Source: Lachnospiraceae bacterium GAM79 (GTDB lineage Bacteria > Bacillota > Clostridia > Lachnospirales > Lachnospiraceae). From it: a stretch of 64,000 nt of DNA. Below are positions 2,544 to 47,699 of the stretch, in pieces. The notes under the pieces are model-generated. The model was not told the DNA's origin, did no database searches, and saw only the letters and a list, made by a program, of their open reading frames with translations. Position 1 is the stretch's first letter. Each line of letters starts with the position of its first letter. A program made the position numbers and the translations under genes. The stretch is taken from NCBI GenBank assembly GCA_003584705.1, contig AP018536.1:682001-746000 (forward strand), given 5' to 3'.

Positions 2544-2623
2544 GAGAGTTTTATGGGACTTTAAAAATGATACCTTTTTATCAGAACAGGGAACGAAAGG
2601 ATTCTGATAAGGAGGTATTTTTT

Positions 2624-2734: not shown

Positions 2735-2749
2735 TTAATGTCCAGTGTC

Positions 2750-2779
2750 TTTACCGGGGCTGTGTATATGTGATATAGT
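2750..2779 (+). promoter_or_regulatory. Probable sigma-A promoter of the PfkB kinase gene
   Basis: TTTACC (2750-2755), 18 bases, TATAGT (2774-2779). It lies between the small ORF and the kinase start and gives a leader of about 100 bases. Confidence 0.4.
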
Positions 2780-2885
2780 ACAAATGTAAAGAAAAAATGT
2801 AAGGGGTTTCAACGCTGCACTGTAAGGAGTAACGGTGAAATTCTGATAAAGCATTTGGCAAAATATGCAGATGGGAGTTTATATT

Positions 2886-3920: not shown

Positions 3921-3961
3921 AGCATTTACACTTCTTATCTGATCGAACAAATAGAAAACAC

Positions 3962-4005
3962 AAAGCTCTGCCATGTTAATTTAAGTGCATGGCAGGGCTT
4001 TTTCT
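3962..4005 (+). terminator. Intrinsic terminator after the PfkB kinase
   Basis: Inverted repeat AAGCTCTGCCATG / CATGGCAGGGCTT (one G-T pair) followed by a T-rich run. Confidence 0.85.
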
Positions 4006-4152
4006 GTTTATTTTTAACAAAATTGAACCTAAAATATATTAAAAAGTCTGCTGTACAAGGTTAAATTAGTTTGATATACTAAAGACTGATATAGAACTAA
4101 AAGCAGGATATTATCAGACGGAAGATTCGAGAAACGGAAGGGAGACAGCAAC

Positions 4153-19134: not shown

Positions 19135-20070
19135 ATGAACAAAGATATTATTTTTTTATCACCGGTGTGCACCCACAATATCTGGGGCGGTACCCGGTTA
19201 AACAGAGAATTCGGGTACCCCATCGAGGGCGACGACATCGGTGAGTGCTGGGGTATCAGCGCCCATCCCAACGGAGACGGCACCGTGGCAAGCGGCGCTT
19301 ATAAGGGAATGAAGCTGTCCGAGCTGTGGGAGAAGCATCCGGAATTGTTCGGCAATACGGGAATGGATCGTTTTCCGTTACTGATCAAGATCATTGATGC
19401 CAAGGACGATTTAAGCATCCAGGTGCATCCGGATGATGCTTATGCGAAGGTACATGAAAACGGATCCCTGGGCAAAACCGAGTGCTGGTTCATCTTAGAC
19501 TGTAAGGAGAATGCTACGCTGGTGGTCGGACATAATGCAAAGACGAAGGAAGAGCTGGAACAGATGATTCATGAGGGCAAGTGGAAAGAATTCATTCGTG
19601 AGATCCCTATTAAGCCCGGTGACTTCATCCAGATCGATCCCGGTACCGTACATGCCATTAAGGGCGGTACACTGCTTCTTGAGACACAGCAGAGCAGCGA
19701 CATTACTTACCGTGTATACGATTATGACAGACTGAGCAATGGCCAGCCCAGACAGCTACATATCGCTCAGAGTATCGATGTTATCACTGTTCCTGCCAAA
19801 TCCGCAGAGAACAGCGTGGTGCATACCGAGAAAAAGGACGATGCGATCCAGCAGCTGATCCGCTGTCCTTACTACACCGTATACCGCATTGACGTGGAGC
19901 ATCGTGTGGAGACCTGGCAGGATAAGCCCTTTGTACTGATGAGTGTGGTAGAGGGAGAAGGCACCCTGAACGGTACTCATTTAAAAAAGGGCAATCACCT
20001 GATCCTGCCCGACGGCTACGGTAAGGTAGAGTTACAGGGCAGGATGCAGATCATCGCATCTACGATCTAA
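19135..20070 (+). CDS. manA: Mannose-6-phosphate isomerase, class I
   Basis: About 311 residues from ATG 19135, spaced 9 bases after AAAGGA; an in-frame ATG at 19129 is too close to that site. Zinc and active-site motifs of type I isomerases are visible: GECWGISAHPNG, SIQVHPDDAYA, GKTECWFILD, and DPGTVHAIKGG. It interconverts mannose-6-phosphate and fructose-6-phosphate and so ends the mannan pathway after mannose-1-phosphate is converted by a mutase not seen in the window. The last 154 bases recur, diverged, at 24837-24990. Confidence 0.93.
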   Translation: MNKDIIFLSPVCTHNIWGGTRLNREFGYPIEGDDIGECWGISAHPNGDGTVASGAYKGMKLSELWEKHPELFGNTGMDRFPLLIKIIDAKDDLSIQVHPDDAYAKVHENGSLGKTECWFILDCKENATLVVGHNAKTKEELEQMIHEGKWKEFIREIPIKPGDFIQIDPGTVHAIKGGTLLLETQQSSDITYRVYDYDRLSNGQPRQLHIAQSIDVITVPAKSAENSVVHTEKKDDAIQQLIRCPYYTVYRIDVEHRVETWQDKPFVLMSVVEGEGTLNGTHLKKGNHLILPDGYGKVELQGRMQIIASTI

Positions 20071-20120
20071 GCTTACGCCAGATCAAAAGCCGGTAAATGA
20101 CAGCTGTCTTTAAAACAGAT

Positions 20121-22187
20121 TTACTTTCCAAGTACAACGGATAGCTTGATTTCTTTTTCTGTTTCGCTCAGGTCGAAATCACCGCCGTCGGAGACGGTCA
20201 CGCGCAGTTCATAGAGCACGCCGTCTGTCAGCTCCGTCACATTTGCTCCGGTCTCGTCTGTGAGCGACCACAGTTCAGAGCCAACCTTTTCCAGCTTGCC
20301 GTCTGCACCATAGGCGTAGAGCGTCAGATCGGAGGCACTGCCGGACAGGTTGTTCATACGGAAGGCTACCATGGTGTTGGGATGCACGTTGCAGATGGTC
20401 GCGGTGTTGTGCCAGCTTGCAACCGTACCTTCACCGCCATCCTGCGCAAACTGATCCTGCGAAAGAACATTTCTTGCCGCCTGATCAAGATCAACCTCAC
20501 GGTACGGAAGCTCTGGCAGGTACACGAAGCGATCCTGCAAACGCAGCAGTTCCAGATAGCCTGTCGGGCAGTAGAGCGTATTTCCGTTGCTGCCGGTGTA
20601 CATGCCGATGGCCATATTATTGTAGCCGTATTTGTTGGACACATCCATCGTGAAGACGGTTTCGCCCGTTGCAAAGTCCAAAATAATGTACTGCCACATG
20701 CCGGTATCCAAATCCTGTACGTAACCGTAGATATAGCCTGTTGCAGTGGAGAGTTTCATGATCGCCGTGTCGCGCAGATCGTTCCGGCTCCAGACGCTCT
20801 TCATTTCATAGCCATCAGCGGTTTTTAAGGTGTCCACCCGTTCAACGCCCGGGGCGATCATAACATTACCCTTCATCAGCCAGTTCTGGTCATAAATGTT
20901 GGCGTAGCTCTGAATCGAAGAGTCATTGTCAGGGTCGGCAAGCCCTGCGTTACCGGCGCCGAACCAGTTGCAGACGATCGTGCTGACGGTGCCTTCACCG
21001 TCGTCATAAACGATTGCAGAGTTCTCAACCGCCACCTGATACCCATCGGGCAGATCATCCAAAACAGGCATGCTGGCTACGACCTCTCCGGTCTTCATGT
21101 CGAGCGCGAGAAGCTTAACGGGGTCAGCGTTGTCGGTGAATAGTACAAGGTCTGGTGTCAGTGTGGGCGAGCAGCCACCACCCCAGGCAAGCCCGCCTCC
21201 GGTTGTCTTATCGCCATCGTGGCTGACCTTCGCACCGACACTCTCATATGGCGTGCACCACACAACGTTCACACCTTCTTCCGCGCGCAACAGGTAGCAG
21301 TTCTGGTTCGTCAGAATGACCGCACCGTCTTTGGAGGCAGCAATGCCGTTTTCTGCGCCCTCGCCAAGGGGCAGCCCGTAAACAAAGACAGCTTTTGAAA
21401 GATCGGGTTGTTCGCCGTTCAGAATCGATTCTATCGCTGTGTGGGCAATGTAGCCGAGAACACCCTGCTGCTGTCGCTCAGGATAGATCCGGAAGCCGCC
21501 GGTGGCGAACCAAAGGTTTCCGTCGTAGTCAAAGACCACGGACAGAAGATTCTGTGTCAGCTCTTTGCCGAGCGCGGTCTCAGCAGCCGCTTTGATATCG
21601 ATATCCAGAACCTTTTCGAATTCCGGAATGACGCTGCCGTCTTCCTCCGTCGTACGAAGTATCAGTACATGGTTGTTGCTCGTCGGGCAGACGATACGGT
21701 TTTTAGAGTCAAGGAATGTGTAGGAACTCTGGATGACGTAACCACCGCCATCATGCTGCATCGGTGAAAAATAGCCGAGCGTCTTCGTCTCTGTTGCATT
21801 CAGATCACGGATGGCGATGCCGCCGAGCAATGGCACGACTGCGTGACCGTAGTTGTCAAAGTAAATCGCGGGTGAGGCGTTCGGGTTCGTTGTCTCAAAG
21901 GAAACATTGATTTCCGGATAGATGCCGAGCGGCAGAATTTCATCCGTTGAGTCGGTGTTGTAGCCGTCGTGATGGATGTTTGCATCACTTTTTGCCATAT
22001 AAGGGTTTTCATCCACGTGTTTTGGCTGTAAAGCCTTCACGGGCAGTGCACCGGATAACGGTGCAGAAGATGTTGTTTCGTCCTCTGCCGGTGTGGGCGT
22101 TCCACCGCAGGCCGCCATAGATAGGCACAGTGTTCCCGCCAGAAGGAAACTAAATACAGAATAAATCTTTTTTCTCTTTTTCATCAA
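20121..22187 (-). CDS. Large lipoprotein of unknown function, probable beta-propeller
   Basis: 688 residues. Signal peptide with lipobox SMAACGG (Cys about 27) and a short Thr/Ser/Glu linker. The body has recurrent strand patterns of propeller proteins (YFDNYGHAVVPLLGG, FLDSKNRIVCPTSNN, VFDYDGNLWFATGG, TGGGLAWGGGCSPTLTPDLVLFTDN) and a C-terminal beta-sandwich domain. It is exported and membrane anchored. No enzyme motif is recognised; arylsulfotransferase-like or quinoprotein-like propellers are remote possibilities. Its start overlaps the stop of the upstream receiver gene (TGATGATG), so the two are translated together, inside the cassette bracketed by the manA 3' ends. Confidence 0.72.
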   Translation of the reverse strand: MMKKRKKIYSVFSFLLAGTLCLSMAACGGTPTPAEDETTSSAPLSGALPVKALQPKHVDENPYMAKSDANIHHDGYNTDSTDEILPLGIYPEINVSFETTNPNASPAIYFDNYGHAVVPLLGGIAIRDLNATETKTLGYFSPMQHDGGGYVIQSSYTFLDSKNRIVCPTSNNHVLILRTTEEDGSVIPEFEKVLDIDIKAAAETALGKELTQNLLSVVFDYDGNLWFATGGFRIYPERQQQGVLGYIAHTAIESILNGEQPDLSKAVFVYGLPLGEGAENGIAASKDGAVILTNQNCYLLRAEEGVNVVWCTPYESVGAKVSHDGDKTTGGGLAWGGGCSPTLTPDLVLFTDNADPVKLLALDMKTGEVVASMPVLDDLPDGYQVAVENSAIVYDDGEGTVSTIVCNWFGAGNAGLADPDNDSSIQSYANIYDQNWLMKGNVMIAPGVERVDTLKTADGYEMKSVWSRNDLRDTAIMKLSTATGYIYGYVQDLDTGMWQYIILDFATGETVFTMDVSNKYGYNNMAIGMYTGSNGNTLYCPTGYLELLRLQDRFVYLPELPYREVDLDQAARNVLSQDQFAQDGGEGTVASWHNTATICNVHPNTMVAFRMNNLSGSASDLTLYAYGADGKLEKVGSELWSLTDETGANVTELTDGVLYELRVTVSDGGDFDLSETEKEIKLSVVLGK

Positions 22188-22606
22188 TAATCCTCCTCAA
22201 TGTTATGTTTATTGTGATCCACCCGGAATAAGGCAGACGTTTTTTTCCCATCTAACCATGTAGAAAGTCCCTGCTGAAACGCTTCTTCTGTTATTGGCTC
22301 TAACAGAAAATAGTCTACACGCAGCCGAAACGCATGCAGGGAAAAATCCAGATCGCTGCACCAGATGATGCGCATTTCGGGAAAAAGCGTCCGCAGATGC
22401 TCCACCGCATTCAACCCTGCTACCCCCGGAAGTGCGATCACAGTGCAGGTTGGCGCATTTATACGCGCCACATCAAAGAACAACTCCTGCCCACGGTAAC
22501 AGTCCATTTTGGGAAACAGACCGCGTTCAAAGCAGAACCGTGAAAGCTGCTCTATATAAAAGGCTTCCTGTGTTTCACTACTTGTCAGCACGGCAATGTG
22601 GTACAC
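22184..22606 (-). CDS. Stand-alone receiver-like protein
   Basis: 140 residues with the pattern of a response-regulator receiver of the LytTR type: MYHIAVLTSSETQEAFYIEQL at the start, a central hydrophobic strand, and IIWCSDLDFSLHAFRLRVDYFLLEPITEEAFQQGL, which matches the usual alpha4-beta5-alpha5 end (Lys replaced by Glu in LLEP). The expected phosphoacceptor region reads PTCTVIALPGV with no Asp, so it is probably a pseudo-receiver. No output domain. It is divergent from the two-component pair and coupled to the lipoprotein gene. Confidence 0.6.
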   Translation of the reverse strand: MYHIAVLTSSETQEAFYIEQLSRFCFERGLFPKMDCYRGQELFFDVARINAPTCTVIALPGVAGLNAVEHLRTLFPEMRIIWCSDLDFSLHAFRLRVDYFLLEPITEEAFQQGLSTWLDGKKTSALFRVDHNKHNIEEDY

Positions 22607-22792
22607 GGCACTCCCTCCTTTCTGCCGTCATTGATGCTTTCTGCTTGTCAGTATACGGATATGCAAACGCTTTTCAAGTTGTTTGGCACGAAAGCCTCAA
22701 TTCTGTCACGAAATCTGATTTTTTCACGGTGCCGGTGTTGGACAGGTATGATATAATTTAGTTGGAATCTTTTACAAAGGAGTCAGTCCAGT
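22607..22792. promoter_or_regulatory. Divergent promoter region with spaced CACGAAA repeats and an extended -10 box
   Basis: Contains CACGAAA at 22687-22693 and 22707-22713 (20 bases apart) and a further CACG at 22725, upstream of TGATATAAT (TATAAT at 22751-22756) that would drive the two-component pair. Direct repeats about two helical turns apart are the usual arrangement for LytTR regulators, so these may be autoregulatory sites. Confidence 0.4.
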
Positions 22793-23509
22793 ATGAGAAT
22801 AGCAATCGTGGATGATATTGAGACCGAACGTGCGCTGTTGAAAATGCGGCTTGAGCGACAGCTGAACTTGTACGGTGTAGAGACGGAGATTTTAGAATTT
22901 GACAGCAGCGAGAGCTTTCTCGCAGCAGAAAAAGAACGGCACTTTACTGTGGCATTTTTGGACATTTACATGAAAGGATTAAGCGGCATGGATGCCGCAA
23001 AGGAACTTCGGAAGATGGATGCAGACTGCTTTCTGATCTTCACCACAACATCTACCGACCATGCATTGGAAGGATTTCAGGTGCGGGCATTTCACTATCT
23101 CGTGAAGCCTTTTTCCGAGGGAGAACTTGCCGGTCTGCTTGCTGAACTGCTCGCTAAACTTCCGCGTCCTGAGCCGATTCTGACGGTGAAAGTCAGTGGC
23201 AGCGACGTTCGCCTTCGCTATAGGGACATCATCTTTGCCGAGCATTTTGCTCATATGATCAACATTCGCACGACTGCCGGTAAAACGCTTGCCACGCGGC
23301 AAAGCTTTAAGGCATTTACCGAGCCGCTGAAAAAAGATCCCCGCTTTTTTGTCTGCGGCCGCGGTACGATTGTCAATTTAGAACATGCCGTTGATTTTCA
23401 GGCCGCCGCTTTCTGCATGACCGACGGTAGCCGCGTATATGTCAACCAGGAACTTTTGAAGCCTGCCAGGCAGGCATTTATGGAATTTCTGCTGCAAGGG
23501 GGTGTATGA
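22793..23509 (+). CDS. LytTR-family response regulator
   Basis: 238 residues. N-terminal receiver with the phosphoacceptor Asp about 57 (VAFLDIYMKG), acidic pair DD near residues 8-9 and the conserved Lys in YLVKPFSE. The C-terminal 100 residues are a LytTR DNA-binding domain (LRYRDIIFAEHFAHMINIRT, FFVCGRGTIVNLEHAVDF). AgrA-like. Overlaps the histidine kinase gene by 8 bases, so the pair is co-translated. Confidence 0.92.
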   Translation: MRIAIVDDIETERALLKMRLERQLNLYGVETEILEFDSSESFLAAEKERHFTVAFLDIYMKGLSGMDAAKELRKMDADCFLIFTTTSTDHALEGFQVRAFHYLVKPFSEGELAGLLAELLAKLPRPEPILTVKVSGSDVRLRYRDIIFAEHFAHMINIRTTAGKTLATRQSFKAFTEPLKKDPRFFVCGRGTIVNLEHAVDFQAAAFCMTDGSRVYVNQELLKPARQAFMEFLLQGGV

Positions 23510-24830
23510 GATGAAAGATATTCTGCGTCCGATCCTGGAGTTGTCCGTCGTACTCCCCGGTCTTTTACTTGCATATTTCCCTGTAAAATCCTATCTGAAG
23601 CAGTCCCCCGGAAAGCTTGCCGCCCGGATTCTCCCCCTGATGGCAGGATTATGTATCGGTGGTGGGATCGTCTGCTATCAGCTGCATGCTTCCACTGCGT
23701 CTGCCCTGGCAGGGATCACATTGCTTGCAATTGGGCTATATACCGGAACGCTCAAAATCTCCCTCTGGAAATCCGGAACAATTGCACTGACTGTTTGCGC
23801 AGTATTTGCATGCATCAACAGCTTGTCTCGAGCTATCAGTGTTATGATTGCTCTGCATATGCAGCTGCCACAGGACGAACCGTGGTTCTGCCTTGCAGCC
23901 TGTGTATTTTATAATGTTGTTTGCTGGATTTTGGTGCTGACAGCGTTCTATCCGTCAACCCATGCAGTTCGTGTGATGGTCGAGGATGATAATTTTGCGC
24001 AAACATGGTATGTGTTCTGGGTTTTGCCGCTGGTGTTCATTTTTTTGAACCTTTTTATGATTCCGCGCTATCAGACGACACTTAGGACCGGTCGTGTATT
24101 GCAGGGATATATTGTGATAAGTATTGCACTTCTTTTGCTTTTGCTCTTGTTCAACGCAATTTTCCTGCTAATGGCCACCAGTCTTAACCGCAACGCGAGA
24201 TTACAGCAGGAAAACCAGCTTCTTTTCCTGCAGCAGCAGCGCTATGAGAATCTCAAAGCTGCCATCGAAGAAGTGCGGCAGGCGCGGCATGATATGCGCC
24301 ATCAACTGAATCAAATTTCCGCACTGGCTGAGACCGGCGATCTGGAAAGATTGAAAAGCTACCTTGAAAAAAACATTTCCCGCATCCCGGATCTCGGTAT
24401 ACACTTCTGCGAAAACTGCGCAGCAGATAGCGTCATCGGCTATTATTGTGCCCTGGCAAAGCGCGAAGGCATTCCCTTTTGTGCAAAGCTCGATCTGCCG
24501 CAGACTCTTCCAATCGATGAGATCAACATGTGTCTGGTCTTGTCCAACTTGTTGGAAAATGCGCTCGAAGCCAGTATCCGCACTGCACCAGACAGACGGC
24601 AGATTAAAATCACTGCATACCTGCATGCCGGGCGGCTGCTTCTGATCGAAGTTGAGAATGCCTATGACGGCGAAATCAGGGAGAAGGACGGTGTTTTTCA
24701 ATCCTCCAAACGAAAGGGAAACGGCGTCGGCATCCAGTCAATCCAACATATTGCAGAAAAAAGCGGTGGTGCAAGTACGTTTGCCTGTCAGAATGGTGTT
24801 TTCTCCGCTAAAGTTATGCTCTGCGGATAA
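23502..24830 (+). CDS. GHKL-type sensor histidine kinase (AgrC-like)
   Basis: 442 residues. The first 230 residues contain about six membrane helices forming the sensor; a coiled coil follows (LQQENQLLFLQQQRYENLKA). The phosphoacceptor His lies in QARHDMRHQLNQIS. The catalytic part has the N box (NMCLVLSNLLENALEAS) and a G box (GNGVGIQSI), as in the GHKL_5 group of AgrC/ComD kinases that often sense peptides. It phosphorylates the LytTR regulator encoded just upstream. Its stop is seven bases before the duplicated manA fragment. Confidence 0.92.
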   Translation: MYEMKDILRPILELSVVLPGLLLAYFPVKSYLKQSPGKLAARILPLMAGLCIGGGIVCYQLHASTASALAGITLLAIGLYTGTLKISLWKSGTIALTVCAVFACINSLSRAISVMIALHMQLPQDEPWFCLAACVFYNVVCWILVLTAFYPSTHAVRVMVEDDNFAQTWYVFWVLPLVFIFLNLFMIPRYQTTLRTGRVLQGYIVISIALLLLLLLFNAIFLLMATSLNRNARLQQENQLLFLQQQRYENLKAAIEEVRQARHDMRHQLNQISALAETGDLERLKSYLEKNISRIPDLGIHFCENCAADSVIGYYCALAKREGIPFCAKLDLPQTLPIDEINMCLVLSNLLENALEASIRTAPDRRQIKITAYLHAGRLLLIEVENAYDGEIREKDGVFQSSKRKGNGVGIQSIQHIAEKSGGASTFACQNGVFSAKVMLCG

Positions 24831-24836
24831 ATGCAC

Positions 24837-24990
24837 GCAGGATAAGCCCTTTGTGCTGATGAGTGTGGCAGAGGGAGAAGGTACCCTGAACGGCACCAGA
24901 CTGAAAAAGGGAGACCATCTGATTCTGCCCGATGGATACGGTAAGGTGGAATTACAGGGGAAGATGCAGATCATTGCATCTACCATCTAG
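24837..24990 (+). pseudogene. Second copy of the manA 3' end (51-codon fragment)
   Basis: Aligns without gaps to the last 154 bases of manA (19917-20070), with about 24 mismatches (about 84% identity), most of them silent third-position changes. It encodes the ManA C-terminal 51 residues and ends in a stop but has no start or ribosome site. The pattern indicates it came from a functional, diverged manA allele. It marks the right edge of the 20.07-24.84 kb cassette. Confidence 0.85.
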
Positions 24991-25014
24991 AAATTTCTTC
25001 AATGAAAAGAGGGA

Positions 25015-25146
25015 TTGATTTCTCAACCCCTCATAGTGTATAATCTACTTAGAAAGGTGGTCGGAAGTGAAAATTCCGATTCGCCCTCAGTTCAGCTTAA
25101 AAAGAAATAGCATTCACTTTGGTCGGGGGATGCTATTTCTTTTTGT
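25015..25146 (+). ncRNA. Probable antisense antitoxin RNA of a type I toxin-antitoxin pair
   Basis: Promoter TTGATT (25015-25020), 18 bases, TATAAT (25039-25044) gives an RNA of about 95 bases ending at a perfect 15-bp hairpin (25099-25113 with 25130-25144) and T run. The RNA runs convergently into the 3' end of the toxin gene on the other strand, as in TxpA/RatA and BsrG/SR4 of Bacillus. The hairpin serves as terminator in both directions. Confidence 0.7.
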
Positions 25147-25228
25147 TATTATCGTCACCATGTCTGTCGATGTATGATAGAGCTGCAAAGACAACTAACA
25201 ACAGAGTAAGTACTTCCATTGTATTCAT
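25133..25228 (-). CDS. Small hydrophobic holin-like toxin (type I TA, TxpA/BsrG-like)
   Basis: 31 codons starting MNTMEVLTLLLVVFAAL, then SYIDRHGDDNNKKK. It is one membrane helix followed by a YIDR segment and a charged tail, the build of Firmicutes putative holin-like toxins. The ribosome site AAAGGAGG is 8 bases before the ATG at 25228; an ATG at 25234 is too close to it. Promoter on the minus strand: TTGAAC (25338-25333), 17 bases, TATAAT (25315-25310). The leader of about 75 bases can fold (AATCG/CGATT). The gene is too short for routine annotation. Expected action: membrane damage when the antisense RNA is outpaced. Confidence 0.78.
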   Translation of the reverse strand: MNTMEVLTLLLVVFAALSYIDRHGDDNNKKK

Positions 25229-25323
25229 GGGCATCCCCTCCTTTGTATTACTAGAGGGCATCTAACAATCGGAAAATCGCATCCGCTTTCGTTTCGATTA
25301 CACAATAACATTATAACACAAAT

Positions 25324-25337
25324 CGAACAAATGTTCA
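25324..25337. promoter_or_regulatory. LexA (SOS) box over the toxin -35 element
   Basis: CGAACAAATGTTCA fits the Firmicutes LexA box CGAACRNRYGTTYC at 13 of 14 positions, including both GAAC/GTTC half-sites. It overlaps the toxin -35 hexamer (25333-25338), the right place for LexA to block the polymerase. This predicts DNA-damage induction of the toxin. Confidence 0.7.
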
Positions 25338-25388
25338 ACTCGAGATATGGTGTCTTTCGGTGCAGTCTATCGATTCACTATGAAGTGA

Positions 25389-25417
25389 TTGATACCGCCT
25401 TGTCTATGGTATATACT
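25389..25417 (+). promoter_or_regulatory. Promoter of the small alarmone synthetase gene
   Basis: TTGATA (25389-25394), 17 bases, TATACT (25412-25417). Transcription would begin near 25424, before the mini-ORF and hairpin. Confidence 0.6.
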
Positions 25418-25443
25418 ATGGATATACCGTATGCAAGGAGACA

Positions 25444-25487
25444 TTTTTTATGATAATCTATGATTCATCATAGATTATCATAAAAAA
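25444..25487 (+). promoter_or_regulatory. Perfect 20-bp leader hairpin containing a seven-codon mini-ORF
   Basis: Arms 25444-25463 and 25468-25487 are exact inverse complements with a 4-base loop. The arm begins with six T and ends with six A. An AAGGAG site (25435-25440) lies 9 bases before ATG 25450, which opens the mini-ORF MIIYDSS (stop 25471-25473) spanning both arms. No T run follows, so this is not a standard terminator. A ribosome on the mini-ORF would melt the stem, which suggests translation-linked control of the alarmone synthetase. Confidence 0.6.
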
Positions 25488-25517
25488 TATTGATCAAAAA
25501 ATAGAGACAATAAAAGA

Positions 25518-26267
25518 GTGAGTTATATCATGGATACAATCAGAGGTAAATTTTTCAAACAACATTTATTATCAGATCAATTCCTCGATCTGATTGAGAA
25601 AAACAAGCGCCCCATGGACGAACTGATGTCGTATTATCAGTGCGCCATCATGGAGGTGGAGACGAAATTCAAGGTTTTGAATCAGGAGTATTCCCTGGAA
25701 TACGACCGCAATCCCATCGAAGGGATCAAGACCAGAGTCAAATCGTATGACAGTATTCTGCGTAAGATCCGTCGGAAAAATATTCCCATGACGCTGGAAG
25801 GCATCGAAGAGAATATCCGGGATATCGCCGGAGTCCGGGTCATCTGTTCCTTCCCGGATGATATTTACGAACTGGCGGAGAGTTTCTTACGGCAGGATGA
25901 CATTACTCTGATCGAGCGCAAGGATTATATAAAGAATCCCAAGGAGAGCGGCTACCGGAGCCTGCATCTGATCGTGCAGGTGCCGATCTTTTTACAGAAT
26001 ACGAAGAAACTGGTCTATGTGGAGGTGCAGTTCCGCACCATAGCCATGGATTTCTGGGCAAGCCTGGAGCACAAGCTGCAGTATAAGAAAAACATTCCGG
26101 AAAGTCAGTCGAAGTTTTTAAAGGATGAGCTGTATGACTGTGCGCAGCAGAGCGCAGCGCTGGATAAGCGGATGCAGAATATCCGGAATGTCATTGCGGC
26201 GAGTGAGACCGCAGAAGAGGAGAAACAGGATTTCCTGCCAATCTTTTTGCGGGAAAACAAAGGGTAA
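25518..26267 (+). CDS. Small alarmone synthetase, (p)ppGpp synthetase of the RelQ/RelP type
   Basis: About 249 residues containing only the RelA/SpoT synthetase domain, with no HD hydrolase, TGS or ACT domain. Visible: RVKSYDSILRKIRRK, the substrate segment IRDIAGVRVICSFPDDIYELA, KDYIKNPKESGYRSLHLIVQVP, and VEVQFRTIAMDFWASLEHKLQYKK. It transfers pyrophosphate from ATP to GTP or GDP to make alarmone. Start either GTG 25518 or ATG 25530; neither has a strong ribosome site. The leader hairpin upstream and weak start suggest controlled expression. Confidence 0.9.
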   Translation: MSYIMDTIRGKFFKQHLLSDQFLDLIEKNKRPMDELMSYYQCAIMEVETKFKVLNQEYSLEYDRNPIEGIKTRVKSYDSILRKIRRKNIPMTLEGIEENIRDIAGVRVICSFPDDIYELAESFLRQDDITLIERKDYIKNPKESGYRSLHLIVQVPIFLQNTKKLVYVEVQFRTIAMDFWASLEHKLQYKKNIPESQSKFLKDELYDCAQQSAALDKRMQNIRNVIAASETAEEEKQDFLPIFLRENKG

Positions 26268-26315
26268 TTACGTAGCCTGAAGGTATGTAGATGATGGAAA
26301 GGCGAGAAGAATTGT

Positions 26316-27185
26316 ATGAAGATCAGAGATATTTTGAATAAAGATACAGCAACGCTCTCTTTTGAGGTATTTCCTCCGAAGAAGAGTACGGATTTCGGAA
26401 ATGTGGAGGCAGCAGCACTGGGGATCGCGGCATTGCAGCCTGCTTATATGAGCGTGACTTATGGTGCCGGCGGTAGTACCAAGGGACATACCATTGCTTT
26501 GGCAGGAGAGATTCAGAAGCAGCACAATGTGCCTACGGTAGCGCATCTGACCTGTGTCTGTGCTGACAGGAGCAGTATCGGCGCAGCTCTTACAGAAATG
26601 CAGGCGGCGGGAATCGAGAATATTCTGGCTCTGAGAGGAGATATTCCGAAGGATTTTGATGGGGAGGTATTTACAGATTTTACCCATGCATCAGATCTGG
26701 TACGCTTTATCAAAGAGAACGGAGATTTCTGCGTAGGAGGTGCCTGCTACCCGGAAGTTCATCCCGATTCTGCTAACAAAAATGCGGATATTCAGGGACT
26801 GAAGGCAAAGGTGGATGCCGGATGTGAGTATCTGACGACCCAGATGTTCTTCGACAACAATATCTTCTTCAACTTCATGTACCGTGTGCGGGAAGCAGGG
26901 ATTACCGTGCCCATCGTTCCCGGCATCATGCCCATTACCCGCGGCGTACAGGTGAGAAATGCCGTAAAACTGTCCGGCTGTAATGTGCCGGAGCGCTTTA
27001 AGAATATCGTAGACCGCTTCGGAGACAACCCGGAAGCCATGAAACAGGCAGGCATCGCCTATGCCACCGATCAGATCATCGACCTGCTGGCGAACGGAGT
27101 GAAGCATGTCCATGTCTATTCCATGAACAAGCCCGATGTGGCGGCAGGGATCCAGAGGAACCTTTCGGAGATTTTGAAGGCGTAA
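26316..27185 (+). CDS. metF: 5,10-methylenetetrahydrofolate reductase
   Basis: 289 residues of the MetF TIM barrel with the N-terminal signature LSFEVFPPKK, YGAGGSTKG, FAD-site segment LALRGDIPKD, and ITTQMFFDN-like LTTQMFFDNNIFF. Reduces methylene-THF to methyl-THF for methionine synthesis. No corrinoid or MetH gene is nearby. The stop codon TAA is part of the A-rich edge of the CreR-like element: the guide handle begins three bases after the stop, so the metF message carries that element in its 3' untranslated region. Confidence 0.95.
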   Translation: MKIRDILNKDTATLSFEVFPPKKSTDFGNVEAAALGIAALQPAYMSVTYGAGGSTKGHTIALAGEIQKQHNVPTVAHLTCVCADRSSIGAALTEMQAAGIENILALRGDIPKDFDGEVFTDFTHASDLVRFIKENGDFCVGGACYPEVHPDSANKNADIQGLKAKVDAGCEYLTTQMFFDNNIFFNFMYRVREAGITVPIVPGIMPITRGVQVRNAVKLSGCNVPERFKNIVDRFGDNPEAMKQAGIAYATDQIIDLLANGVKHVHVYSMNKPDVAAGIQRNLSEILKA

Positions 27186-27230
27186 AGAATTTCTACTTTG
27201 GTAGATTAAAGCTGTCAGGTTAAAAAGAAA
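27184..27230 (+). ncRNA. CreR-like guide RNA: lone Cas12a repeat handle with a short promoter-matching spacer
   Basis: AATTTCTACTTTGGTAGAT (27188-27206) equals the 3' part of the CRISPR repeat except for three changes, all in the hairpin loop; the UCUAC/GUAGA stem and flanking AAUU/U are intact. Identity extends back to 27184 inside the metF stop. The following bases TAAAGCTGT (27207-27215) match the minus strand of the cas12a promoter at 27328-27320, directly after a TTTG PAM (27332-27329); matching then stops. A 9-base seed permits Cas12a binding but not cleavage. Probably cut out of the metF 3' UTR by Cas12a itself; no separate promoter was seen. CreR (Cas-regulating RNAs) are known for type I and V-A systems. 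Confidence 0.82.
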
Positions 27231-27267
27231 ATATATGCTATAAACACAATTAAATAAAATGATGATT

Positions 27268-27305
27268 AAACGCTTAGGGAATGTTCTCTGAGCGTTTTTA
27301 TTTGA
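27268..27305 (+). terminator. Intrinsic terminator after metF and the CreR-like RNA
   Basis: AAACGCTTAGGGA / TCTCTGAGCGTTT stem (wobble and one mismatch) followed by TTTTATTT. It separates the metF-CreR transcript from the cas12a promoter. Confidence 0.8.
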
Positions 27306-27319
27306 AAAAATAGCATAAC

Positions 27320-27332
27320 ACAGCTTTACAAA
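27320..27332 (-). promoter_or_regulatory. CreR target: PAM plus 9-base seed match over the cas12a -35 box
   Basis: Read on the minus strand: TTTG (PAM, 27332-27329) then TAAAGCTGT (27328-27320), identical to the first nine guide bases of the CreR-like RNA. It covers the -35 hexamer TTTACA at 27325-27330, so Cas12a bound here would block its own transcription. Confidence 0.8.
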
Positions 27333-27353
27333 AAATATAGTAGAGGATATAAT
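27325..27353 (+). promoter_or_regulatory. cas12a promoter
   Basis: TTTACA (27325-27330), exactly 17 bases, TATAAT (27348-27353): a near-consensus sigma-A promoter 37 bases before the cas12a ATG, with GGGGAGG as ribosome site. Confidence 0.85.
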
Positions 27354-27389
27354 TAGATATAAGATTTTACAACAAGGGGAGGAAAATAT

Positions 27390-30300
27390 ATGAATTATAA
27401 AACAGGCCTTGAAGATTTTATTGGAAAAGAATCCTTATCAAAGACATTAAGAAATGCATTGATTCCTACAGAGAGTACAAAGATCCATATGGAAGAGATG
27501 GGGGTCATCCGTGATGATGAATTGCGAGCAGAAAAACAACAGGAATTAAAGGAAATCATGGATGACTATTATAGAACATTTATTGAGGAAAAACTTGGTC
27601 AAATTCAAGGAATACAATGGAATTCCTTATTCCAAAAAATGGAAGAAACGATGGAGGACATATCAGTACGAAAAGATCTTGATAAAATACAAAACGAAAA
27701 AAGAAAAGAAATCTGTTGCTATTTTACCAGTGATAAAAGATTTAAGGATCTGTTTAATGCTAAATTAATTACGGATATCCTTCCAAACTTTATAAAAGAT
27801 AATAAAGAGTATACTGAGGAGGAGAAGGCAGAGAAAGAGCAGACACGGGTGTTATTTCAGCGTTTTGCTACTGCATTTACTAATTATTTTAATCAGCGGA
27901 GAAACAATTTTTCTGAAGATAATATTTCTACGGCCATAAGCTTTCGGATTGTAAATGAAAATTCGGAAATTCATTTACAGAATATGCGGGCGTTTCAGCG
28001 AATAGAGCAACAATACCCGGAGGAAGTCTGTGGAATGGAAGAAGAATATAAAGATATGTTGCAGGAATGGCAGATGAAACATATATATTCGGTAGACTTC
28101 TATGACAGAGAATTAACACAGCCAGGAATAGAATATTACAATGGCATTTGCGGGAAAATAAATGAACATATGAATCAATTCTGCCAGAAAAATAGAATTA
28201 ACAAAAATGATTTTCGAATGAAAAAGCTACATAAACAAATACTATGCAAAAAATCTTCCTATTATGAGATCCCGTTTAGATTTGAATCAGACCAGGAAGT
28301 ATATGATGCCTTAAACGAATTTATAAAAACAATGAAAAAGAAAGAAATTATTCGCAGATGTGTACATTTAGGGCAAGAATGTGATGATTATGACCTGGGG
28401 AAGATATATATTAGTAGTAATAAATATGAGCAGATATCAAATGCGCTATATGGAAGCTGGGATACTATAAGAAAATGTATAAAAGAAGAATATATGGATG
28501 CGCTGCCCGGTAAGGGGGAAAAGAAAGAAGAGAAAGCAGAAGCAGCTGCAAAAAAAGAAGAGTATAGAAGTATTGCTGATATAGATAAAATAATTTCCTT
28601 ATATGGATCGGAAATGGATCGAACAATATCAGCAAAAAAATGTATTACTGAGATTTGTGATATGGCAGGACAAATTTCTATAGATCCGCTGGTATGCAAT
28701 AGTGATATAAAATTGCTGCAAAATAAGGAGAAGACAACGGAAATCAAGACAATATTGGATTCCTTTTTGCATGTATATCAGTGGGGACAGACTTTTATCG
28801 TAAGCGATATAATAGAAAAAGATAGTTATTTTTATTCTGAGTTAGAAGATGTTTTGGAAGACTTCGAGGGGATTACAACGCTTTATAATCATGTTCGAAG
28901 CTATGTTACGCAGAAGCCATATAGTACAGTAAAATTTAAGCTTCATTTCGGTTCTCCTACATTGGCAAACGGATGGAGTCAAAGCAAAGAGTACGATAAT
29001 AATGCAATTTTGCTGATGCGGGATCAAAAATTTTATTTGGGAATTTTTAATGTAAGGAATAAACCGGATAAACAAATCATAAAAGGCCATGAAAAAGAAG
29101 AAAAAGGAGATTATAAAAAAATGATTTATAATCTTCTTCCGGGGCCTTCAAAAATGTTGCCTAAGGTTTTTATTACTTCACGGTCAGGTCAGGAGACATA
29201 TAAACCGTCAAAACACATTTTAGATGGATATAACGAAAAGAGACATATTAAGTCATCGCCCAAATTTGATTTGGGATATTGCTGGGATTTGATTGACTAC
29301 TATAAAGAATGTATTCATAAACACCCTGATTGGAAGAATTACGATTTTCACTTTTCAGATACCAAAGACTATGAAGATATCAGTGGATTTTACAGAGAAG
29401 TAGAAATGCAGGGGTATCAAATTAAGTGGACGTATATTAGTGCTGATGAGATTCAAAAGCTTGATGAGAAGGGGCAAATATTTTTATTTCAGATATATAA
29501 TAAAGACTTTTCCGTTCATAGCACAGGAAAAGATAATCTGCATACGATGTATCTCAAAAATTTATTTAGTGAAGAGAATCTCAAAGATATTGTTTTGAAA
29601 TTAAATGGAGAGGCAGAATTATTTTTCCGAAAAGCAAGTATAAAAACTCCGATTGTACATAAGAAGGGATCTGTTTTGGTAAATAGAAGTTATACACAGA
29701 CGGTAGGTAATAAAGAAATCAGAGTTTCCATACCGGAGGAATACTATACAGAAATATACAATTATTTGAACCATATAGGAAAGGGAAAATTGTCTTCGGA
29801 AGCCCAAAGATATCTCGATGAAGGCAAGATTAAAAGCTTCACTGCGACAAAAGATATTGTAAAAAATTATCGCTATTGTTGTGACCACTATTTTCTGCAT
29901 CTTCCCATAACCATTAATTTCAAGGCAAAAAGTGACGTTGCAGTAAATGAAAGGACTTTGGCATATATTGCTAAAAAAGAAGATATTCATATTATTGGAA
30001 TTGACAGAGGGGAAAGAAATCTACTGTATATTTCTGTAGTAGATGTGCATGGGAATATACGGGAGCAGCGTTCCTTTAACATTGTTAATGGGTATGATTA
30101 TCAACAGAAGTTAAAGGATAGGGAGAAGAGCAGGGATGCAGCAAGAAAAAATTGGGAAGAAATAGAAAAAATCAAAGAGTTAAAAGAAGGCTACTTATCC
30201 ATGGTAATTCATTATATTGCGCAATTAGTTGTGAAATATAATGCGGTTGTAGCCATGGAAGACTTGAATTATGGATTTAAAACAGGAAGATTTAAGGTTG

Positions 30301-31169
30301 AGAGGCAGGTTTATCAGAAGTTTGAAACGATGTTAATTGAAAAATTACATTATCTGGTATTTAAAGACAGAGAAGTATGTGAAGAAGGAGGAGTGTTAAG
30401 AGGTTATCAGTTAACTTATATTCCGGAAAGCCTTAAAAAAGTTGGGAAACAGTGCGGATTTATTTTTTATGTTCCTGCTGGATATACTTCTAAAATTGAT
30501 CCAACAACAGGATTTGTAAATCTTTTTTCATTTAAGAATCTGACAAATCGAGAGAGCAGACAGGATTTTGTAGGGAAGTTTGATGAAATAAGATATGACA
30601 GGGATAAGAAAATGTTTGAGTTCTCATTTGACTATAATAATTACATAAAAAAGGGAACAATTTTGGCTTCAACAAAATGGAAAGTGTATACTAATGGTAC
30701 GAGATTAAAGAGGATAGTTGTCAATGGAAAATATACAAGTCAATCGATGGAGGTAGAACTTACCGATGCTATGGAAAAAATGTTGCAGAGGGCAGGGATT
30801 GAGTACCACGACGGAAAAGATTTAAAAGGTCAAATTGTTGAAAAAGGTATTGAAGCCGAAATTATTGATATTTTTCGACTCACAGTTCAGATGCGGAACA
30901 GCCGAAGTGAGTCGGAAGACAGAGAATATGACAGGTTGATTTCTCCAGTATTAAATGATAAAGGCGAGTTCTTTGATACCGCAACAGCAGACAAAACTTT
31001 GCCTCAGGATGCAGATGCAAATGGTGCATATTGTATTGCTCTGAAAGGTCTTTATGAAGTAAAACAGATTAAAGAAAACTGGAAGGAAAACGAACAGTTC
31101 CCAAGGAACAAACTTGTGCAGGATAATAAAACATGGTTTGATTTTATGCAGAAAAAAAGGTATTTGTAG
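27390..31169 (+). CDS. cas12a: CRISPR-associated nuclease Cas12a (Cpf1), type V-A
   Basis: 1259 residues, usual Cas12a length. The effector processes its own pre-crRNA and cuts DNA next to T-rich PAMs. Visible: N-terminal SKTLRNALIPT; REC lobe; WED/PI segments (LANGWSQSKEYDNNAILLMRDQ; LLPGPSKMLPKVF); pre-crRNA-processing region KNYRYCCDHYFLHLPITINF; RuvC-I IIGIDRGERNLLY (Asp about 872), bridge helix region, RuvC-II VVAMEDLNYGFKTGR (Glu about 957), and RuvC-III DADANGAYCIALKGL (Asp about 1209). All three catalytic acids are present, so it should be active. A Lys/Glu/Ala-rich stretch (KGEKKEEKAEAAAKKEE, near residue 375) looks like a flexible insert. Strongly AT-rich compared with neighbours. 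No cas1, cas2 or cas4 nearby. Confidence 0.97.
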   Translation: MNYKTGLEDFIGKESLSKTLRNALIPTESTKIHMEEMGVIRDDELRAEKQQELKEIMDDYYRTFIEEKLGQIQGIQWNSLFQKMEETMEDISVRKDLDKIQNEKRKEICCYFTSDKRFKDLFNAKLITDILPNFIKDNKEYTEEEKAEKEQTRVLFQRFATAFTNYFNQRRNNFSEDNISTAISFRIVNENSEIHLQNMRAFQRIEQQYPEEVCGMEEEYKDMLQEWQMKHIYSVDFYDRELTQPGIEYYNGICGKINEHMNQFCQKNRINKNDFRMKKLHKQILCKKSSYYEIPFRFESDQEVYDALNEFIKTMKKKEIIRRCVHLGQECDDYDLGKIYISSNKYEQISNALYGSWDTIRKCIKEEYMDALPGKGEKKEEKAEAAAKKEEYRSIADIDKIISLYGSEMDRTISAKKCITEICDMAGQISIDPLVCNSDIKLLQNKEKTTEIKTILDSFLHVYQWGQTFIVSDIIEKDSYFYSELEDVLEDFEGITTLYNHVRSYVTQKPYSTVKFKLHFGSPTLANGWSQSKEYDNNAILLMRDQKFYLGIFNVRNKPDKQIIKGHEKEEKGDYKKMIYNLLPGPSKMLPKVFITSRSGQETYKPSKHILDGYNEKRHIKSSPKFDLGYCWDLIDYYKECIHKHPDWKNYDFHFSDTKDYEDISGFYREVEMQGYQIKWTYISADEIQKLDEKGQIFLFQIYNKDFSVHSTGKDNLHTMYLKNLFSEENLKDIVLKLNGEAELFFRKASIKTPIVHKKGSVLVNRSYTQTVGNKEIRVSIPEEYYTEIYNYLNHIGKGKLSSEAQRYLDEGKIKSFTATKDIVKNYRYCCDHYFLHLPITINFKAKSDVAVNERTLAYIAKKEDIHIIGIDRGERNLLYISVVDVHGNIREQRSFNIVNGYDYQQKLKDREKSRDAARKNWEEIEKIKELKEGYLSMVIHYIAQLVVKYNAVVAMEDLNYGFKTGRFKVERQVYQKFETMLIEKLHYLVFKDREVCEEGGVLRGYQLTYIPESLKKVGKQCGFIFYVPAGYTSKIDPTTGFVNLFSFKNLTNRESRQDFVGKFDEIRYDRDKKMFEFSFDYNNYIKKGTILASTKWKVYTNGTRLKRIVVNGKYTSQSMEVELTDAMEKMLQRAGIEYHDGKDLKGQIVEKGIEAEIIDIFRLTVQMRNSRSESEDREYDRLISPVLNDKGEFFDTATADKTLPQDADANGAYCIALKGLYEVKQIKENWKENEQFPRNKLVQDNKTWFDFMQKKRYL

Positions 31170-31484
31170 ATGGAAGATTTTTTGCCCGGCCTCCACATAT
31201 TTTCATAAATTATATGGAGGTCAGGACAACCTGACCTATCAGACCGAAGCGCAGATGAACGGAACAAATGCCCATAAAGTGATTCGGACATAGGATACAA
31301 TATTCTGTGTTTGAAATTGACAATAGTGATCGAATAAAGGATAATATAATTACAGAAAATACAAACCTAGCCTCAAATATCTGTAGATAGGTTTATTGTA
31401 AAAAAAATTAGTGAAATAATAACAAAAAAGTGCATAAAACATAAGCACATTAAGTCCCAAATTGTGCAATAACACAAAATAAGA
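31170..31484 (+). other. CRISPR leader region between cas12a and the array
   Basis: About 315 bases without a gene. It holds two hairpins just after cas12a (31190-31220, a CCTCCA/TGGAGG stem; 31216-31235, AGGTCAGG-ACAA-CCTGACCT), the array promoter at 31317-31345, and an AAACCTA/TAGGTTT inverted repeat within the first part of the pre-crRNA leader. Confidence 0.65.
31317..31345 (+). promoter_or_regulatory. Promoter of the CRISPR array
   Basis: TTGACA (31317-31322), 17 bases, GATAAT (31340-31345), about 140 bases before the first repeat. A perfect -35 box: the array appears to have its own promoter, separate from the one for cas12a. Confidence 0.7.
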
Positions 31485-31818
31485 GTTAAATAATAAGAAA
31501 GAATTTCTACTAGTGTAGATCACGGTTGACTGATAGATGTGTCGATAGTTAAATAATAAGAAAGAATTTCTACTAGTGTAGATGTGAAACACCCTATATT
31601 GCTGTCACGGTTAAATAATAAGAAAAAATTTCTACTAGTGTAGATTTAAGTGGTGCTTAGTGATTTTTTTATTGTTAAATAAAATAATAAGAAAGAATTT
31701 CTACTAGTGTAGATATGTGGGTATAGCCTATGTGGTTACCGGGTTAAATAATAAGAAAGAATTTCTACTAGTGTAGATCGGTTTTTTTAACATATATAGA
31801 TTTAAATAACCAGAAACA
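31485..31818 (+). CRISPR. Type V-A CRISPR array, five repeats plus a decayed terminal repeat
   Basis: Repeat of 36 bases (GTTAAATAATAAGAAAG then AATTTCTACTAGTGTAGAT) at 31485-31520, 31548-31583, 31610-31645, 31674-31714 and 31743-31778. Spacers are 27, 26, 28 and 28 bases. Repeat 3 has one G-to-A change. Repeat 4 has a 5-base insertion in its AT-rich 5' half. After repeat 5 come 22 bases and then a decayed 5' half-repeat at 31801-31818 (14 of 18 bases). The Cas12a handle is at the 3' end of every repeat, so guides read on the plus strand with the leader on the cas12a side. No spacer matches elsewhere in the window were noticed. Confidence 0.97.
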
Positions 31819-31843
31819 CAACATTAACTCGTCAAATAAATCA

Positions 31844-31894
31844 TTGACAGAGCAAAAAAGATGTACTATCATCCATTTTGGATGCAGGTACATC
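31844..31894 (+). promoter_or_regulatory. marR-ABC promoter with an overlapping inverted-repeat operator
   Basis: TTGACA (31844-31849), 17 bases, TATCAT (31867-31872). An interrupted palindrome, GATGTAC-TAT-CATCC paired with GGATG-CA-GGTACATC (31860-31894), covers the -10 box and start site. It is the probable site for autorepression by the MarR protein. Confidence 0.6.
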
Positions 31895-31933
31895 CTTTTC
31901 TGTTATCTGAATACAACACAGAGAGGTAGAACA

Positions 31934-35829: not shown

Positions 35830-35886
35830 TAAGATGTAAGATGCCTGACGGATTGCTCCGTGCTGCGCACTCTCACAATCCTGCCC

Positions 35887-35935
35887 GGTATTCGCATATC
35901 GTGAAGCTGACGCTTCCCTTTTATGCGAATATCGG
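35887..35935. repeat. Nested inverted repeat after the ABC exporter
   Basis: TATTCGCATA (about 35890-35899) pairs with TATGCGAATA (about 35922-35931), and a second stem GAAGC/GCTTC lies inside the loop. It is not followed by a T run. Possibly a palindromic repeat element or a transcript-stabilising structure. Confidence 0.5.
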
Positions 35936-35938
35936 AGC

Positions 35939-36000
35939 GGGTCATGAAACAAGAACCCCACGTTTGTGCGAGCACAGCGTGGGGTTCTTGTTTATGACCC
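35939..36000. terminator. Bidirectional terminator between ABC exporter and symporter genes
   Basis: About 23-bp stem with one bulged base; core AAGAACCCCACG / CGTGGGGTTCTT, outer GGGTCAT / ATGACCC. Sits between two convergent genes. Confidence 0.85.
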
Positions 36001-36007
36001 TGGCATC

Positions 36008-37381
36008 TTACATAGAAATAAGTCCAAATGCATTTGCCACAGAGCTTAATAAAATAATCGCAGCAAATACCGGGCAGAGATACTTGATCATGAAATTGAA
36101 TATCTTTTTGCGGCGGAAAGCGGCTTCTCCGTGCATGACTTCTTCTTCCACAGCCTTTACTCCGATGACGCGGGACACCAGTAGACAGATGGTGATGGCA
36201 GCAATAGGCATCATCACGGAGTTGGTCAGGAAATCGAAGAAATCAAGGAACTGCATGCCGATGATCTTCACAGCACCAAGCGGTCCGTAACCCAGTGAGG
36301 ATAACGTTCCCAGTGCCAGCATGATCACACCCATGATCAGGGTAGATTTTTTACGACCCCAGCCAAGCTCGTCCTCGAAAGTAGACACAGCACTTTCGGT
36401 AAGTGCAATGGAGCTGGTCATGGCTGCGAACAGTACCAGTACGAAGAACATAATACCTACGAAGGTGCCCATTCCCATGCTATCGAAGACCTTGGGAAGT
36501 GTGATGAACATCAGGGAAGGACCAGCCTGTAAGGTATCGGGATCTCCGCCGGAAAATGCGAACACGGCGGGAATGATCATGAGACCTGCCATGATCGCGA
36601 TGGCAGTATCAAAGATCTCCACATTTTTCGTGGAACCTTCAATGGAGACATCTTTTTTCATATAAGAGCCGAAGGTGATGAGAATACCCATGGCAATGGA
36701 CAGAGAGTAGAACATCTGTCCCATGGCAGCTACGACGGTCATCCAGGAGAAATTCGCAGGATTCGGGATCAGGAAATACTTCACGCCGCTCAGTGCTCCC
36801 GGTCTGGTAACAGAATAGACTGTGATGACCACGGAGAGCACTACCAGGATCGGCATCATAATGCGGGATACGCGCTCGATACCGTTGCGGACACCGGCGT
36901 AGATGATTCCCAGAGTACACAGAGTGAATACGATAAAGCACAGCTCTGTAGAGACACCATTGGAAATAAACGTGGAAAAATAACCGTCTGCTGCCAGATC
37001 ATGTCCGTGACCCTTGGCATATTCCACCAGATATTTGATCACCCATCCGCCGATGACGGAATAATAAGGAACGATCAGAATAGGAATAATAGCGTTGATC
37101 CATCCACCGAAGGACAACCATTTGGATTTCCCGAAGGTATGAAAGGCACCTACGGGGCTTTTGCCTGTCATGCGTCCCAGTGATGTCTCTGCCACGATCA
37201 TGGTATAACCGAAAGTCAGCGCCAGGATAATATAGATCAGCAGAAAGATACCACCGCCGTATTTGGCTGCCAGATACGGGAAACGCCAGATATTGCCCAG
37301 ACCTACCGAGGCACCGGCTGCCGACAGGACGAAACCGATCTTGCCGGAAAATGAGCTTCTGTTATTCTTTTTGTGATTCAT
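36008..37381 (-). CDS. Sodium-dependent amino acid symporter (SNF/NSS family)
   Basis: 457 residues with 11-12 membrane helices. The family opening is clear (FVLSAAGASVGLGNIWRFPYLAAKYGGGIF), giving the unwound TM1 sodium site, followed by SLGRMTGKSPVGAF. LeuT/MhsT-type transporters take up amino acids with sodium. The substrate cannot be told from sequence. Ends at the bidirectional terminator; upstream lies a long intergenic region shared with spoVT. Confidence 0.92.
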   Translation of the reverse strand: MNHKKNNRSSFSGKIGFVLSAAGASVGLGNIWRFPYLAAKYGGGIFLLIYIILALTFGYTMIVAETSLGRMTGKSPVGAFHTFGKSKWLSFGGWINAIIPILIVPYYSVIGGWVIKYLVEYAKGHGHDLAADGYFSTFISNGVSTELCFIVFTLCTLGIIYAGVRNGIERVSRIMMPILVVLSVVITVYSVTRPGALSGVKYFLIPNPANFSWMTVVAAMGQMFYSLSIAMGILITFGSYMKKDVSIEGSTKNVEIFDTAIAIMAGLMIIPAVFAFSGGDPDTLQAGPSLMFITLPKVFDSMGMGTFVGIMFFVLVLFAAMTSSIALTESAVSTFEDELGWGRKKSTLIMGVIMLALGTLSSLGYGPLGAVKIIGMQFLDFFDFLTNSVMMPIAAITICLLVSRVIGVKAVEEEVMHGEAAFRRKKIFNFMIKYLCPVFAAIILLSSVANAFGLISM

Positions 37382-47461: not shown

Positions 47462-47699
47462 GAACTCCCGGAGCATGCGATACACATGTCTCGATGTAAG
47501 GTCTCCGGATGTGAATTTTCTACGAAAAGTGATGAGTAGTTCTCGTCATGACGGGGCCGCCTACAGTCGACATCCATGTCGACAATCGGCTGACGCGGAC
47601 ATCGTGTCCGCTTTCCCCCTGCCTTTCAGCACTTTTCTAGAAAATATCAACATCCTCCGACAAACATCTTCGACATGGCACCGCATACGCCGGGAGTTC
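47462..47699. repeat. Large imperfect inverted repeat (about 240 bases), MITE-like
   Basis: Ends GAACTCCCGG (47462-47471) and CCGGGAGTTC (47690-47699) are exact inverse complements. Pairing continues inward with gaps (ATGCG/CGCAT; ATTTTCTA and GAAAAGTG with their complements at 47629-47645). The centre carries two perfect small hairpins, GTCGACAT-CC-ATGTCGAC (47566-47583) and GCGGACA-TCG-TGTCCGC (47595-47611). No coding frame of interest. Confidence 0.75.

Follow-up and report, generated by a model that had tools for sequence, protein, structure and literature searches.

At the end of the metF gene of Lachnospiraceae bacterium GAM79 lies a Cas12a locus, and between metF and cas12a stands a single repeat handle followed by a short guide whose first nine bases recur in the cas12a promoter. 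We describe this guide as a cas-regulating RNA (CreR) for the reasons given below. The window is the whole 64,000-nucleotide stretch of DNA that was analysed, and its coordinates are used throughout; the basis of each assignment is in brackets.

26316..27185, + strand: metF (methylenetetrahydrofolate reductase), the predicted host transcript (NCBIfam TIGR00676, 309.8 bits, cut-off 293.7)
27182..31834, right edge approximate, + strand: block of ~4.65 kb absent from the sister species G483 (comparison with G483, which has ~25 other bases)
27184..27187, + strand: AAAG, repeat-like bases 5' of the handle (repeat family D2 begins at 27184)
27188..27206, + strand: CreR handle, a lone Cas12a repeat handle (stem TCTAC/GTAGA, loop TTTG)
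27207..27215, + strand: CreR seed TAAAGCTGT, nine bases matching the cas12a promoter (sequence match)
27216..27227, + strand: CAG and GTTAAAAAG, the remainder of a 12-base spacer and then a possible degenerate start of a second repeat (spacing shared with L019 and L028)
27268..27297, + strand: intrinsic terminator (fold z -6.15), the sole + strand terminator-like site found between the metF stop and cas12a
27320..27328, - strand: target site (protospacer) of the CreR seed in the cas12a promoter (sequence match)
27329..27332, - strand: PAM TTTG of the target site (sequence)
27325..27353, + strand: cas12a promoter-like site (-35 TTTACA at 27325-27330, spacing 17, -10 TATAAT at 27348-27353)
27390..31169, + strand: cas12a, 1259 aa (TIGR04330, 1283.5 bits)
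31485..31778, + strand: CRISPR array of five repeats (repeat search)

The Cas12a protein, which we take to resemble ErCas12a (MAD7), carries the motifs DRGER (872), EDLN (957), ADANGA (1208) and HLPITINFKAK (837), whose roles are presumably those of a nuclease (three RuvC-type motifs) and of RNA processing. Since the nuclease motifs are intact, safety from self-cutting would depend on a short match between guide and promoter. A Cas1 search that was positive in 9 of 14 control genomes found none in this genome, and spacer acquisition has therefore probably ceased. Exact 20-base probes from four of the five array spacers had no match in viral contigs, and the PAM is therefore not readable from targets; a TTTV PAM is assumed for this Cas12a. 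Two structured RNAs lie further along the window on the minus strand, a Clostridiales-1 RNA at 35839-36008 (Rfam RF01699, 131 bits) and a TwoAYGGAY RNA at 47500-47662 (RF01731, 103.1 bits).

The metF stop codon is TAA at 27183-27185, and the two bases AG separate it from the handle, so that the repeat-like AAAG shares two bases with the stop codon (its last two). A sequence-only reading of this DNA had described a lone Cas12a handle after metF that differs from the array repeat at three loop positions, and the comparison agrees: the CreR handle, AATTTCTACTTTGGTAGAT, departs from the array handle, AATTTCTACTAGTGTAGAT, at three positions, all within the four-base loop (TTTG versus TAGT), the agreement outside the loop being what a guide compatible with its cognate effector would have. 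Across the whole 4,078,671-base genome, the handle motif with at most one mismatch occurs six times, in the five array repeats and in the lone CreR handle, and the reversed-motif control gave 0 matches. The hairpin of the handle alone folds no better than shuffles (58 of 200 as good), and an Rfam search of the handle returned no family at gathering score.

The seed TAAAGCTGT recurs on the minus strand at 27328-27320, directly after a TTTG PAM at 27332-27329, as that reading had stated, and it was also right that the site covers the -35 box of a near-consensus promoter with 17-base spacing. The target overlaps the TTTA of TTTACA, the PAM overlaps the last two bases of the box, and the promoter-like site has 11 of 12 consensus matches, the best of six such sites in 25400-27420 (shuffles average 4.1). 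This is a partial, PAM-flanked guide match to a cas promoter, nine bases long and lying over the -35, of the kind that defines CreR. The five array spacers, tested against the cas12a upstream region, gave matches of 2-3. Intergenic DNA is AT-rich and might produce such a resemblance by chance, a reading to which we give next to no credence: among 20,000 random 30-mers from the window (a few at the CreR locus itself were skipped), 1 gave a contiguous match of at least nine bases beside a TTTV PAM within -500..+40 of cas12a and 53 reached at least seven, and the same arrangement is present in 7 further distinct loci. The observation of a handle with a matching seed is confirmed as real and beyond chance.

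These further loci come from a survey of cas12a in other genomes. A single-protein scan of genome contigs gave no relative, and an alignment query was used instead. The resulting set holds 91 entries, namely the best 80 of 347 loci from the alignment search, 1 viral locus, 9 from family and genus samples and the window itself; 87 are distinct (4 duplicates) and 79 have at least 250 bases upstream, so that counts over this set cover nearer relatives. In the family, 8 of 397 genomes lie above the Cas12a cut-off (two weak matches, L015 and L016, were left out), and the seven besides the window's own came up again in a second sample of the family. The genus samples have cas12a in 3 of 101 and 3 of 138 genomes, each time the window's own plus two with a distant Cas12a, and the class sample in 2 of 391, own included, the new locus there (L113) having no handle. 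The genus of G042 has it in 1 of 2 genomes. Viral contigs yielded one Cas12a locus, without a handle, and plasmids one distant Cas12a.

A perfect handle within -500..+40 of cas12a is present in 9 of the 87 distinct loci, a set that includes the best 80 of 347; the other 78 lack one at this position, so the arrangement is not a general one. Eight of the nine have guides that match DNA just before their own cas12a beside TTTA or TTTG; the ninth, L053, has no seed match, and its three-repeat array abuts cas12a near a contig end. A search over -1000..+40, allowing handles with up to 2 mismatches and requiring the following bases to recur at least 7 in a row beside a TTTV PAM, matched 8 entries or 7 distinct loci (window, L019, L022, L028, L038, L074, L083), all with perfect handles, compared with 9 matched entries over 20 rounds of 91 Markov-1 resampled control regions. 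The record titles of the eight matched loci read Bacillota, Actinomycetota and Bacteroidota. L022 and L092 are the same contig by sequence; its record title is Bacteroidales, a genome search places it in the window's family, and the title may be wrong.

Guide and site have changed together across these loci. Contiguous seed matches run to 9 bases in the window, L028 and L019, 15 in L022, 11 in L083, 8 in L038 and 7 in L074; in L043, which is built like L038, 9 of 10 bases match with one mismatch (4 contiguous). When spacers were swapped onto each other's regions, none of the 56 swaps exceeded 6 contiguous bases. Across the eight loci, 68 of 72 cells agree between a seed and its own site, and of 40,320 possible pairings only the true one does so well, as would be the case if seed and site had been kept matched in evolution, a property of CreR. 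The window, L019 and L028 all match over exactly nine bases, and the four seed positions that vary among them (2, 6, 7, 8) are mirrored in the site, at Cas12a identities to the window's protein of 50% (L019) and 56% (L028). With the PAM requirement dropped, TTTA or TTTG still flanks the best contiguous match in 7 of 8 loci; for L028 the search gave a second, equal nine-base match without a PAM. Comparison of relatives for covariation had been proposed as a check on the sequence-only reading, and what the eight distinct loci have is seeds and sites that change together behind perfect handles, the opposite of independent drift.

Not every locus carries the same weight. If the measure is how many of the first ten bases match, L074 with 7 and L038 with 8 fail to rise above the swaps, 17 of which reach 7 and 1 of which reaches 8. 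The guide of L074 is on the other strand, and a PAM-less site agrees with it better (8 of 10). The L028 two-handle unit and the L053 three-repeat array include guides without a match. In L083, over the stretch ~-205 to -126 relative to the cas12a match, the target site is upstream of the CreR, and this CreR may therefore belong to the 5' leader of the cas12a mRNA itself. The CreR unit of L028 (two repeats, the first spacer of ordinary length), within 1075-4040, stands behind a likely methionine ABC transporter operon (NlpA lipoprotein, NIL-domain ATPase, permease), and the link to methionine that it shares with metF may be chance. L038 (titled Eggerthellaceae) and L043 (Coriobacteriia) have similar CreRs whose seeds differ at several places and whose sites mostly follow; the target sites of both adjoin a TTGACG or TTGACA box.

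Seed pairing in the window stops at base nine, again as the earlier reading had it, and the predicted transcript continues with CAG and then GTTAAAAAG, which resembles the start of an array repeat. Twelve bases after the handle come GTTAAAA in the window locus, GTTTAAA in L019 and GTTAAAA in L028, and letters of this type resemble the array-repeat starts of the window locus and L028; the build was not seen in the other four + strand loci (L022, L038, L043, L083). The build of the window, L019 and L028 would fit a mini-CRISPR whose second repeat is nearly lost, a form known from CreA (PMC8501985). The non-pairing part of the guide (CAGGTT, then A-rich; 27216-27227) is nearly identical in the window locus and L019, and the bases opposite it differ.

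A mini-CRISPR of this build is shared with CreA RNAs (PMC8501985), and the guide might accordingly be an antitoxin RNA whose main target is a toxin gene elsewhere, the cas12a match being secondary. We consider this very improbable. The matched promoter is that of cas12a itself, and exact matches to TTTV plus TAAAGCTGT occur genome-wide at two sites, the cas12a promoter and one inside a coding frame (the reversed pattern also occurs 1 time). Another possibility is that the guide is left over from an array end or mini-array in decay, still matched in appearance and no longer regulating, in keeping with a loop that differs from the array, a second repeat that is almost gone and a system that, lacking a detectable Cas1, may have stopped adapting. 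Against this, the stem, the seed and the PAM-flanked site are intact, and L019, whose Cas12a is 50% identical, has changed seed and site in step; we hold a relic to be quite unlikely, and a CreR acting on the cas12a promoter remains our preferred reading.

If the guide is a CreR, then how it is transcribed is the next question, and here the window locus differs from several of its relatives. The CreR is located between the metF stop and the first terminator, and the best promoter score 5' of its handle is 6, a value that 99.8% of shuffles reach; a promoter scan listed no candidate on the + strand from 26528 to 27325. The six other + strand loci (the scoring left out L074) have best scores of 8.5-11.5 ahead of the handle; the value for L028 is taken ahead of its first repeat, and directly before its second, CreR repeat the score is 7. 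Five of these six have TATAAT or TATATT 6-33 bases 5' of the handle, and L083 has GTTAAT in that position. The scores before L043 and L083 are not clearly over shuffles (0.134 and 0.244), and the promoter contrast comes mainly from L022, L019, L038 and the first repeat of L028. The gap from the stop of the upstream + strand frame to TCTAC is 6 bases in the window locus versus 50-398 in 7 others, measured from the nearest + strand frame of more than 80 codons, some of which are uncertain as genes. Because no recognisable promoter precedes the handle, the gap from the stop is 6 bases and a terminator follows the guide, the placement of the CreR in the metF 3' UTR is supported, on the letters of the locus. 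A promoter of its own, present in several relatives and not known to be definitional for CreR, is in any case not recognisable here.

The CreR might still have its own promoter hidden in the end of metF, poor or of a non-sigma-70 type, in which case metF transcription would matter little. Several other CreR loci have promoter-like sequence before the handle, and coding sequence can conceal promoters. We think a hidden promoter unlikely, given that the stretch with a -10 within ~45 bases of the handle offers no sigma-70-like pair of even average quality and that the scan listed no candidate on the + strand; transcription as the tail of metF is the reading we carry forward.

A comparison with the sister species G483 suggests how a guide might come to be there. 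The metF DNA of the two is 93% identical and the MetF protein 98%, and homology stops at 27181, just 5' of the stop codon, returning weakly at ~31835. G483 has metF, ~25 other bases, a shared hairpin stretch and then ABC transporter sequence, which in the window resumes at 32352; ~130 bases separate metF from that same transporter gene. The repeat-like sequence takes in two of the three letters of the metF stop codon in the window locus, and G483 uses TGA. Because G483 lacks the block and cas12a is rare in the genus (this Cas12a is limited to the window's genome among 138 genus genomes), insertion in the window's lineage is the simplest reading, with one sister genome compared. Fourteen other metF loci of the genus had none of the window's flanking genes within the flanking DNA compared. 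The history would then be that a creR-cas12a-array block inserted at the end of metF, with a breakpoint that removed a promoter of the sort that several relatives keep; the block probably lost the guide's promoter and uses that of metF. The origin in a 3' UTR, claimed from the start, draws support from the insert-free sister as well as from the missing promoter and the terminator after the handle. G483 likely represents the state before insertion, and the guide now appears to form the tail end of a metabolic gene.

The hairpin at ~31867-31900, common to G483, was considered as a displaced metF terminator and dropped, as it may equally be a control region of the next operon. A second stretch of ~5.5 kb, 20067-25529, is also absent from G483, which has ~220 bases between the same neighbours, and the region around that stretch and metF gains or loses blocks.

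Taken together, we consider it probable that the guide in the metF tail, likely freed and bound by Cas12a, would steer Cas12a to its own promoter and repress cas12a without cutting. The CreR would be transcribed from the metF promoter as the tail of the metF message. Cas12a cuts precursors 5' of the handle, and here it would cut 5' of AAUUUCUAC, two bases after the metF stop codon. The freed guide would load onto Cas12a, and the short R-loop over the -35 of the cas12a promoter should block RNA polymerase, with relief when crRNAs or anti-CRISPRs take up Cas12a. That Cas12a itself processes the precursors of its crRNAs has been reported (Fonfara et al. 2016, cited in PMC10115826). A reporter whose mRNA had a guide in its UTR was repressed by Cas12a in mammalian cells, which the authors say may reflect mRNA cleavage (PMC10115826), so trimming of metF by Cas12a is plausible.

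The length of the match is a difficulty for this mechanism. Stable binding by AsCas12a in vitro took 17 matched bases (PMC6050341), and given this value, binding through nine may perhaps be only fleeting; L022, with 15, comes nearest to the 17-base limit. Cell supercoiling and high Cas12a could permit short R-loops. The eight matched loci suggest a range of 7-11 bases (15 in one) for natural Cas12a repression, far below the AsCas12a 17. If the proposed mechanism holds, Cas12a levels would track metF transcription, and Cas12a in turn would trim the metF message. A bolder form of the proposal seems to us doubtful: a natural guide cut from the metF mRNA by Cas12a two bases after the stop would both silence cas12a and remove the terminator hairpin from metF, with one-carbon metabolism and CRISPR immunity each controlling the other, and all of this would have originated from a creR-cas12a-array block without a guide promoter that landed on the metF stop codon.

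Among known systems, the closest is CreR, reported for types I-B, I-E and V-A (Liu et al. 2023, Cell Host Microbe 31:1481, cited in PMC13131331, PMC12948488 and PMC12737573), which acts by a partial match to the cas promoter (PMC13131331, PMC12737573). Judged by its sequence, the metF-tail guide belongs to CreR, which has been reported before in type V-A, and the class assignment of the earlier reading has its counterpart in print (PMC12737573, PMC13131331). Both have a repeat handle and a short guide with a partial match to a cas promoter, and the repression by the effector of its own gene, relieved by crRNA load or anti-CRISPRs, is reported for CreR and predicted here. Unlike known CreR, the metF-tail guide is without a recognisable promoter of its own and lies between the metF stop and the first terminator. 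The literature searched, in which the class appears through reviews so that a case in a primary paper is possible, held no mention of a CreR in a 3' UTR and, in the parts consulted, no description of how CreR guides stay expressed when a CRISPR block moves.

CreA of CreTA is likewise a mini-CRISPR with degenerate repeats and a seed match of ~10 bases, and in some cases a terminator replaces its second repeat, to which the metF-tail guide can be likened (PMC8501985). Unlike CreA, which represses an adjacent toxin gene, the guide here matches the cas12a promoter, no toxin gene was seen, and the effector is a single protein rather than Cascade. With bacterial sRNAs derived from 3' UTRs (PMC9438474, PMC7398697) it shares the form of an mRNA-tail RNA that uses that mRNA's terminator. 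It falls between a stop codon and the terminator of the same mRNA without its own promoter, as such sRNAs do, by the evidence of sequence. Unlike them, its predicted maker and partner is Cas12a, and its target is promoter DNA rather than mRNA. Campa et al. 2019 (cited in PMC10115826) reportedly placed engineered Cas12a guides on the Cas12a-encoding mRNA, where, as is predicted here, the guide is supplied from an mRNA via Cas12a processing; that system is engineered, whereas the one described here is natural and the mRNA is that of metF.
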